Assembly (NCBI RefSeq): GCF_017873815.1
Contig: NZ_JAGGKQ010000007.1
Coordinates: 62,001-126,000, forward strand
Source: Halorubrum alkaliphilum
GTDB lineage: Archaea; Halobacteriota; Halobacteria; Halobacteriales; Haloferacaceae
Direction of reading: 5' to 3'
DNA length: 64,000 nucleotides
Positions 13,885 to 62,047 of this stretch are shown here, piece by piece. The notes under the pieces are model-generated. The model did no database searches. It had not been told where the DNA came from and saw only the letters and a program-made list of their open reading frames with translations. Position 1 is the stretch's first letter. The number at the start of each line of letters is the position of its first letter. The position numbers were made by a program, and so were the translations under genes.

Positions 13885-14018
13885 ACGGGTCGTTCGGGAT
13901 CAGTAGGTGTTAAGCTTGTTATCTCCGCCTCCGCTGGGATCCTGCGGGATCAGGACCGTCTCCGAGTCCCTGCCACCGGTCCGGAACCCCTATGAGGCGA
14001 CGACGAGTTACTTCTGGT

Positions 14019-14636
14019 ATGCGACTGTTCCGGTCGGACGAGCTCCTCGGGATCGCCCGGGAGACCATGGAGTTCATCCTCGAAGCCAGCGAGGAGACCC
14101 ATCCCAACGAGTACATGGGGTTTCTGCGGAGCGACGACGCCAGAAAGCTCGACATCGACCGGGAGGGACAGGTGATCACGGACGTGCTCGTCATCCCGGG
14201 CACGGAGTCGAACCCGGTGAGCGCCTCCGTCAGATCACACATGAAACCGAACGACATGCGCTCGGTCGGCTCCGTCCACTCGCACCCGAACGGAGCGCTT
14301 CGACCGAGCTCGGCCGACCTCGCCACGTTCGGCCAGGGCGAGGTACACATCATCGTCGGCGCGCCCTACGGGTGGGGCGACTGGAAGGCGTTCGACAACG
14401 AGGGGAACCAGACGACCCTCGACGTGCTCGACGTCGAGGTTCCGGACGAGCACTTCTTCCATTTCACGCAGGAGGACATCGACCGGGAGCTCGTCGAGGA
14501 CGGCCACGACCGCGGCGTCATCGATCCCGACGACCACGCCCGGGAGGGTCGTGGCGGTCACGCTCGTGATGACGGCGGCAGCTGGGGCGACGAGGACGAC
14601 GACTCCGGTGGCTTCCTCTCGTGGCTGCGGCGATGA
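14019..14636 (+). CDS. JAMM/MPN-domain metalloprotease
   Basis: 205 residues with a complete JAMM zinc site: Glu31 (NEYMGFL) and the exact H-x-H-x10-D signature, His87, His89 and Asp100 ([14 protein letters not shown]). The C-terminal 40 residues are a low-complexity acidic/Gly tail ending LSWLRR. Archaeal JAMM proteases remove SAMP (ubiquitin-like) modifiers, so desampylase activity is a reasonable guess; the tail makes it longer than the characterised HvJAMM1. The ATG at 14019 is preferred to the frame opening at 13992. Its stop overlaps the start of the next gene (ATGA), implying translational coupling to FAD synthase. Confidence 0.85.
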
Positions 14637-15061
14637 CTCGGGTCGTCGCGCAGGGGACGTTCGACCTCCTCCATCCGGGGCACGTCCACTACGTGGAGGA
14701 CGCGGCGACGTACGGCGACGAGCTACACGCCATCGTCGCCCGGCCGTCCAACGTCACCCACAAGCCGAAACCGATCCTTGACGCCCGACAGCGACGGGAC
14801 ATGATCGCCGCGCTCGACGCCGTCGACGAGGCACACCTCGGCGACCCGGACGACGTGTTCGTCCCGATAACGCGGATCGACCCGGACGTCATCGTGTTGG
14901 GGTTCGACCAACACCACGACGAGGCGGAGATCGCGGCCGCCCTCGCCGACCGGGGCATCGACTGTCGAGTCGAGCGGGCGAGCGCGCGGGAGCCCCGATA
15001 CGACGACGAACTGCTTTCGACCGGCGACATCGTCGATCGAGTGCTCTCGCGTCGGGAGTGA
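14633..15061 (+). CDS. ribL: FAD synthase (RibL-type cytidylyltransferase-like)
   Basis: 142 residues, a compact nucleotidyltransferase: nucleotide-binding HPGH at 14-17 ([16 protein letters not shown]), a long central region ([18 protein letters not shown]) and a C-terminal STGDIVDR. Archaeal RibL uses FMN with ATP or CTP to form FAD, and this length and sequence match that family better than glycerol-3-phosphate cytidylyltransferase. It overlaps the JAMM gene by four bases, so the two are probably one operon. Confidence 0.87.
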
Positions 15062-58797: not shown

Positions 58798-59400
58798 TCA
58801 CGACGGAGCGGTGACCGAACGCGTTCCGCGGAGCCGGTCGGCATTGTGATCCGGTCGGTGGGCGTCGCTCGACCCGTGCTCGGTCTCGAACCCGAGACCC
58901 GTGTAGAACCCCGCCAGCGAGGCGTCGAACTCCGCGGTAACCCGATCCGTTTCGGGGTTGTCCTCGGCACGTTCGACTGCGCGCTCGACGAGCGTGGACC
59001 CGATCCCCCGGCCACGTCGCGCACGCCGGACCGCGACCGCGTCGACGTGGAGGTCGATCGACGGGTCGCCGTCCGGTTCGTCGCGAGTCGACCTCGATTC
59101 ACTTCCGTGTCGAACCGCGACCAGCGCCCCGACGACCACGCCGGTCCGGTCGAACCGTGCCACGAGCACGTCGCCGGCTCCGATCCGTTCCGCGACCGCC
59201 TCGGCGTCAGTTTCCAACATGGCGGCGTCGAGCACGCGGAGCACGTCCAGCCGGTCATCGGGAGTCGCGGGCTCGATCGTGATCCCGTCGATCACGGTCC
59301 CTCCCGTCGCCTCCCGATCGGTCACGTCTCCGCCGGTCACATCTCCGCCGGTCATGTCTCCGCCGGTCACGTCTCCGCCGGTCACGTCTCCGCCGGTCAC
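58798..59400 (-). CDS. GNAT-family acetyltransferase with repetitive N-terminus
   Basis: Up to 200 residues. Acetyl-CoA motif A is VAVRRARRGRGIGSTLVERA, then FDASLAGFYTGLGFETE. The N-terminus is five repeats of (V/M)TGGD encoded by 15-bp tandem units, each carrying a possible GTG or ATG start, so the true start is uncertain (59400, 59385, 59370, 59355, 59340 or 59325). The first GTG overlaps the stop codon of the SAMP2-like gene. Cotranscription with a ubiquitin-like modifier is notable. Confidence 0.8.
   Translation of the reverse strand: MTGGDVTGGDVTGGDMTGGDVTGGDVTDREATGGTVIDGITIEPATPDDRLDVLRVLDAAMLETDAEAVAERIGAGDVLVARFDRTGVVVGALVAVRHGSESRSTRDEPDGDPSIDLHVDAVAVRRARRGRGIGSTLVERAVERAEDNPETDRVTAEFDASLAGFYTGLGFETEHGSSDAHRPDHNADRLRGTRSVTAPS
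59321..59400 (-). repeat. 15-bp tandem repeat, five copies plus a partial
   Basis: The plus-strand unit gtcacgtctccgccg runs from 59321 to 59395, then five more bases. On the coding strand each unit ends in GGAGAC or GGAGAT followed by GTG or ATG, a ribosome-site-like GGAG 2 nt before a start codon. Confidence 0.9.
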
Positions 59401-59603
59401 CGGTGCCCTCCCTGTATCAGTCGGAGCAGTCGGACCTGCTCGGCGTCGACGACGCGGTCGCCGGGGACGGGCGAGCCGTCGACGAGCACCGACGCCTCCT
59501 GTGGATGGTAGCCGGCGGCACGGATCAGATCGGCGTACGTCGCGTCGGCGGCGAGGGTGTGCTCCTCGGTGCCCTCGCCGACGACGTCGACGATCACGTT
59601 CAT
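59397..59603 (-). CDS. samp2: SAMP2-like ubiquitin-fold modifier
   Basis: 68 residues, beta-grasp fold (MNVIVDVVGEGTEEHTL, YADLIRAAGYHPQEASVLVDG, RLLRLIQGG). It closely follows the SAMP2/ThiS-like proteins that are conjugated to lysines through a C-terminal Gly-Gly and supply sulfur for tRNA thiolation. Here Gly-Gly is followed by His-Arg before the stop, so activation would require trimming. The ATG at 59612 is an alternative start. The stop overlaps the start of the GNAT gene. Confidence 0.87.
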   Translation of the reverse strand: MNVIVDVVGEGTEEHTLAADATYADLIRAAGYHPQEASVLVDGSPVPGDRVVDAEQVRLLRLIQGGHR

Positions 59604-61892: not shown

Positions 61893-61930
61893 ATCGCCGG
61901 AGGCGAGCGGTCTCTCGTTGTAAGCAACAC

Positions 61931-61975
61931 GAACCGTGTAACGTCGAACCGTGTAACGTCGAACCATGTAACTTC
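61931..61975 (+). repeat. 15-bp tandem repeat upstream of nadA
   Basis: gaaccgtgtaacgtc is present twice exactly (61931-61960), then once with two changes (61961-61975), then its first five bases again. It lies in the 185-bp space before nadA, about 100 bp from the promoter. Confidence 0.9.
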
Positions 61976-62047
61976 GAACCGGCTATGAGAACGATCGGTA
62001 CCGACCATAGGAAAGTATTGAAGACGAATATTTTTCAACGTGCGTCC

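Follow-up and report, generated by a model that had tools for sequence, protein, structure and literature searches.

SAMP2 genes encoding residues beyond the diglycine throughout Halorubrum, and their near confinement across the order to genomes with a desampylase gene

The window analysed here, the whole 64,000-nucleotide stretch of Halorubrum alkaliphilum DNA (contig NZ_JAGGKQ010000007.1, positions 62,001 to 126,000), contains a gene for the small archaeal modifier SAMP2 whose reading frame continues past the Gly-Gly pair. The features considered, in window coordinates, are as follows:

13992–14636, plus strand: JAMM gene of the second, JAMM2-like type (PF14464, 40.2 bits; NF041370, 17.1 bits)
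14621–15061, plus strand: cytidylyltransferase-like gene (PF01467), overlapping the JAMM gene
58798–59400, minus strand: GNAT acetyltransferase gene (PF13508, PF13673 and PF00583 above cut-off)
59319–59400, no strand: 15-bp tandem array of 5.5 copies (94% matches, score 150)
59397–59603, minus strand: SAMP2 gene, putatively for a proprotein, of 68 codons plus TGA, with its ATG at 59603–59601
59406–59411, minus strand: Gly-Gly codons GGA GGG, residues 65–66, with cleavage predicted after Gly66
59400–59405, minus strand: CAC CGG, the two-residue tail His-Arg, as read from the sequence
59399–59397, minus strand: SAMP2 stop codon TGA, which falls inside the first unit of the 15-bp array

Translation of 59603–59397 gives a product of 68 residues (MNVIVDVVGEG...LLRLIQGGHR*) that ends Leu-Ile-Gln-Gly-Gly-His-Arg; the encoded C terminus is His-Arg and not Gly-Gly. 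The product scored 97.6 bits against Pfam SAMP2 (PF21965, cut-off 27) and 100.9 bits against NCBIfam SAMP2 (NF041919, cut-off 70), and it aligned with Haloferax SAMP2 (PDB 2l32) free of gaps as far as Gly-Gly. Translation, scores and alignment together confirm the proposal, made from the sequence alone, of a SAMP2-like modifier with a Gly-Gly-His-Arg end. It belongs to the same family as Haloferax volcanii SAMP2 (2l32, 4hrs; NF041919) across the 66-residue core, but the NF041919 model and the 4hrs chain both end at Gly-Gly, whereas the window protein has two more residues. A search of the genome found the window gene as its only copy of SAMP2. The gene has no second domain in its own frame, and the GNAT gene downstream uses another frame.

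The two genes meet at a GTGA, in which the GTG at 59400–59398, the first possible GNAT start, overlaps the SAMP2 stop. The exact GNAT start is uncertain, since the array, which crosses the SAMP2 stop and the beginning of the GNAT gene, supplies a run of in-frame GTG and ATG codons. The GTGA overlap was found at 46 of 47 unfused Halorubrum loci. A second 15-bp array (3.5 copies, 91% matches) lies at 61930–61981, shortly upstream of what we take to be a quinolinate-synthase-like gene.

SAMP2 was found in 49 of 52 Halorubrum genomes when the genus was searched, and in all 49 genes residues followed the Gly-Gly. In 47 of them the extension was a tail of 2–25 residues; the other two, which lacked a stop, continued as GNAT domains (155 and 170 residues), although in these two fusions (G029 and G033) a single base divides fusion from overlap and they could be assembly slips. 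The Gly-Gly was invariant (49/49), against 44 distinct extensions. One member of the Halorubrum group is filed as Halobellus captivus. The Gly-Gly ends throughout the genus that the sequence-only reading had set against its own proposal were not seen when the C termini of relatives were compared, and His-Arg is merely the version of a genus-wide tail that the window species carries.

Across the order 299 SAMP2 genes were read, including 93 of 106 matches from the family outside the genus and, outside the family, 78 of about 105 genomes lacking a desampylase (8, plus 70 of 80 searched; 10 low-completeness genomes and a further 7 from one genus were left out of this set). The states of two genes, L369 (an exact Gly-Gly end) and L373 (tail SGAVDA), were set from the translation by eye. 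Gly-Gly stood at the matching place in all 299 genes: 185 ended there, 94 had 1–25 extra residues and 20 were fused onward. Gly-Gly as the encoded C terminus, which holds for those 185 of 299, was not taken as defining SAMP2.

The onward fusions joined SAMP2 to one of two partners. In genus g13 a SAMP2-GNAT fusion was present in all 12 members read, which is hard to explain by an assembly slip. SAMP2-peroxiredoxin fusions were found in 3 of 3 cases in genus g3 and once each in g20, g18 and g37. Both Pfam domains, SAMP2 and GNAT, were detected in two fusions, and the Haloparvum sedimenti fusion matched SAMP2 and AhpC/TSA. The gene order of unfused genomes matches that of the fusions: SAMP2, often a peroxiredoxin next, and then GNAT. 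In three genes (L087, L089 and L179) the first 45 codons past Gly-Gly contained no ATG, GTG or TTG, which suggests that the partner may there be made only as a fusion product. An AlphaFold model of one SAMP2-GNAT fusion (L193), built from a two-row alignment, had a mean pLDDT of 52.1, with the lowest values (24–34) in the junction block at residues 61–90; this would fit a loose linker.

We dropped the idea that SAMP2 is a special case among the SAMPs, as SAMP3 and some SAMP1 genes were tailed too. All 29 Halorubrum SAMP3 genes read were extended past Gly-Gly, 25 of them by 1–3 residues and 4 into a second domain. In the window organism itself SAMP3 (L242, G000:C5:21500-23500) continues in frame into a second domain with the end Met-Arg-Ala-Gly-Gly, and fusions with two Gly-Gly ends were seen in at least seven others (L211, L219, L226, L410, L416, L419 and L423). 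The second domain of the window organism's fusion gave no match in Pfam. Its context and Gly-Gly end make it a candidate for the TBP-like Gly-Gly protein whose gene is reported to adjoin a MoaD-like ubiquitin-like protein (Ubl) in Halobacteria (PMC2948915). Of 14 Halorubrum SAMP1 genes read, 8 were tailed and 6 ended at Gly-Gly. The window organism's own SAMP1 ends exactly at Gly-Gly; tails are therefore dispensable for SAMP function.

If tails have to be removed, they should be absent where the cutting enzyme is absent. The HvJAMM1-type desampylase was defined by NCBIfam NF041370 with a cut-off of 130 bits. The JAMM gene at 14 kb, which the sequence-only reading had put forward as the trimming protease, scored 17.1 bits and is not of the desampylase type, so it was dropped as the processing enzyme; that proposal is probably wrong, as the genome has a desampylase gene on another contig (G000:C17:24316-24768; L236:4317-4769) that scored 159.1 bits. 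Recombinant HvJAMM2 was reported to be non-functional (PMC4895103). The JAMM2-type and cytidylyltransferase-like genes at 13992–15061 show the pairing reported for archaeal Jab genes (PMC2948915).

In the order-wide search, 298 of 392 genomes had some NF041370 match and 273 had one above the cut-off. SAMP2 was extended in 113 of 208 genes from genomes with a desampylase and in 1 of 91 from genomes without one, the other 90 ending exactly at Gly-Gly (Fisher p = 2e-22 for 298 genes, L373 excluded), where desampylase status was assigned by hand from the match lists, weak matches (E about 1e-3 to 1e-6) were scored as absent, and 74 unmatched genomes were scored as absent because they did not appear in the match list. 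Tails are thus found almost exclusively in genomes that carry the desampylase gene. The lone exception (G444, contig 11, L154) is a fusion of SAMP2 with GNAT from a draft genome that is 79% complete and gave no desampylase match; it belongs to genus g13, and the other 11 members read carry the enzyme. The converse does not hold. Since 95 of the 208 genes in desampylase-bearing genomes were tail-free, the enzyme allows tails but does not imply them.

The association persisted when only loci sharing the same downstream neighbour were compared. Where that neighbour was GNAT, extension was found in 86/153 genes with a desampylase and 1/60 without; with peroxiredoxin next, the figures were 19/24 and 0/18. 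Where neither neighbour was present they were 8/31 and 0/13, a difference that is not significant (p = 0.08). The possibility that tails are a by-product of operon layout was dropped in view of this contrast at constant next gene. Permutation at the level of genera within families gave p = 0.001, or 0.0002 when G444 was omitted. On a tree of the 66-residue SAMP2 cores, which is weakly supported, parsimony placed 22 gains of extension, none of them on the desampylase-lacking branches that make up 33% of its length (binomial p = 1.5e-4). The other SAMPs behaved in the same way, with no extension in 30 SAMP1 and SAMP3 genes of desampylase-lacking genomes against 14 of 30 SAMP3 genes from genomes outside Halorubrum with the enzyme (10 tails and 4 fusions), although these sets are uneven, the former being 22 SAMP1 and 8 SAMP3 genes and the latter all SAMP3. 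For SAMP3 alone, outside the genus, the contrast was 14/30 against 0/8 (p = 0.017).

These observations argue that SAMP2 is quite probably a proprotein that is cut after Gly-Gly by the HvJAMM1-type desampylase, where we infer from comparison of sequences that the cut is made, where it falls, which enzyme makes it and that it is needed. The earlier suggestion that the protein might be a precursor is well supported at this level by the genus-wide tail, the invariant Gly-Gly and the near confinement of tails to desampylase genomes. On this mechanism, the window SAMP2 would be synthesised as a 68-residue proprotein, and the desampylase encoded on another contig would cut after Gly66 and release His-Arg. 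Adenylation of the Gly-Gly end by UbaA, the E1 enzyme, would become possible only after this cut, and the freed SAMP2 would go on to act as modifier or sulfur carrier. Little specific function would fall to the tail, a fast-changing linker from the Gly-Gly to the GTGA overlap with the GNAT gene. Given the protease, it would matter little where the SAMP stop codon lies, so that in lineages that keep the desampylase tail length could drift and the stop could sometimes be lost. Loss of the stop would leave SAMP-partner fusions, which the same cut could resolve.

The tail might instead be removed by some other peptidase (a carboxypeptidase, a JAMM2-type enzyme or a general protease), with the desampylase needed for something else. 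A two-residue tail could be taken off by many peptidases, and 169 of the 170 genomes of the family contain a JAMM gene of some kind. However, a JAMM of another type is retained in desampylase-lacking genera of family f1 (g10, g11, g15 and g17; weak PF14464 matches) and their SAMP2 nevertheless ends at Gly-Gly, while a carboxypeptidase would be poorly able to resolve fusions to whole domains; we consider trimming by another peptidase unlikely. Slightly less likely again is that the link between tails and desampylase reflects shared ancestry or another correlated trait and not a need for the enzyme. Tails and desampylase do both cluster by genus, and an independent-pairs test on the weak SAMP2 tree found only 2 supported pairs and so had no power to decide. 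Against this stand the within-family permutation and the absence of any of the 22 inferred gains from desampylase-lacking branches, together with the persistence of the link when the downstream gene is held constant and in other SAMP genes.

It would also account for an encoded C terminus other than Gly-Gly if Halorubrum SAMP2 simply retained its tail and were no longer conjugated. We regard this as very improbable, since SAMP2 proteins with and without tails alike retain the Gly-Gly, which has stayed constant in the genus while the extensions diversified. The last alternative, raised by the sequence-only reading, is that the tail was made by a sequencing error at the junction or by a recent stop-codon shift from the adjacent tandem repeat, and it draws on the position of the stop in the first repeat unit. 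With all 49 homologues of the genus tailed, the tails differing in sequence and many of the genomes near-complete, an error is not needed to account for the tail, and as a source of the tail itself neither origin retains any appreciable probability. Where the stop-shift proposal was partly right is in tying the tail to the repeat: a 15-bp period like that of the window array occurs in several long SAMP2 tails of relatives, which suggests that the length of tail and junction is probably set by slippage of a five-codon repeat unit.

Release of a modifier from a C-terminal extension after Gly-Gly is familiar from the ubiquitin-ribosomal protein fusions of eukaryotes and from QbsE/QbsD of Pseudomonas, in lineages unrelated to the haloarchaeal SAMPs. 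In archaea, precursors of Ubls and their trimming by JAMM proteases are already known. In vitro, HvJAMM1 cleaves a linear fusion of SAMP1 and MoaE precisely behind the Gly-Gly; in cells the cleavage requires HvJAMM1, without which the fusion does not support DMSO respiration (PMC4443979). The haloarchaeal fusions described here likewise place a second domain across the Gly-Gly at which the desampylase cuts SAMP1-MoaE; that fusion was built for experiment, whereas the SAMP2-GNAT, SAMP2-peroxiredoxin and SAMP3-Gly-Gly-domain fusions are natural. Natural archaeal Ubl-MoaE fusions were reported in Crenarchaeota only (PMC4443979). In Caldiarchaeum, CsJAMM cuts CsSAMP precursors, and a CsUb precursor is paired with CsRpn11 (PMC6043591). 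These are also archaeal Ubls with residues after Gly-Gly, and JAMM removal was demonstrated there while for Halorubrum it is a prediction. Unlike the Caldiarchaeum case, ours lies in another archaeal lineage and involves all three SAMPs of a genus, with the extended state tracking the enzyme across an order. The samp2-GNAT gene pair (arCOG00535-arCOG04721) was reported from Halobacteria in 2010 (PMC2948915 Table 1), and the GNAT neighbour is the same as in the window; the accessible text of that paper mentions no SAMP2 tail, fusion or desampylase link for the pair.

In the open-access literature, as judged from titles and abstract openings, no paper on SAMP tails or SAMP2 fusions was found, nor was one combining SAMP2, Halorubrum and diglycine. 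Three things were not found there: SAMPs of a whole genus encoded with extensions; natural fusions of SAMP2 with GNAT or peroxiredoxin, and of SAMP3 with a second Gly-Gly protein; and an extended SAMP state that follows the desampylase across an order.

A broader picture, which we hold to be about evenly poised between right and wrong, is that haloarchaeal SAMP systems with a desampylase often run on proproteins and polyproteins. The enzyme would then license new SAMPs besides erasing conjugates, the fusions would supply a modifier and its partner in equal numbers from one chain, and the extended state would have arisen many times while being barred where the enzyme is lacking. Maturation by proteolysis is regarded as characteristic of ubiquitin in eukaryotes, and SAMPs are regarded as proteins made with Gly-Gly already at the end. 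Should SAMPs prove to be precursors over much of the order, the desampylase would gain a second, earlier role, and this licensing would parallel that of some eukaryotic deubiquitinases acting on ubiquitin. The partners delivered one to one would be an acetyltransferase, a peroxiredoxin and a second Gly-Gly-ended protein. The phenotypes of jamm1 knock-outs in such species would need rereading, and the many natural fusions would be available as substrates for studying how dependence of a modifier on a protease arose. As a caution, SAMP C termini would not be readable from gene annotation.

In one other genome (G045; L237:2005-5044) the desampylase gene lies with E1-like and cysteine-synthase-like genes and with a fourth Ubl, whose C terminus is Gly-Gly-Arg, all named by eye. 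This cluster resembles the mycobacterial CysM-CysO-MoeZ-Mec cluster. In several other Halorubrum genomes a weak ThiS match was seen within a few kb of the JAMM match.
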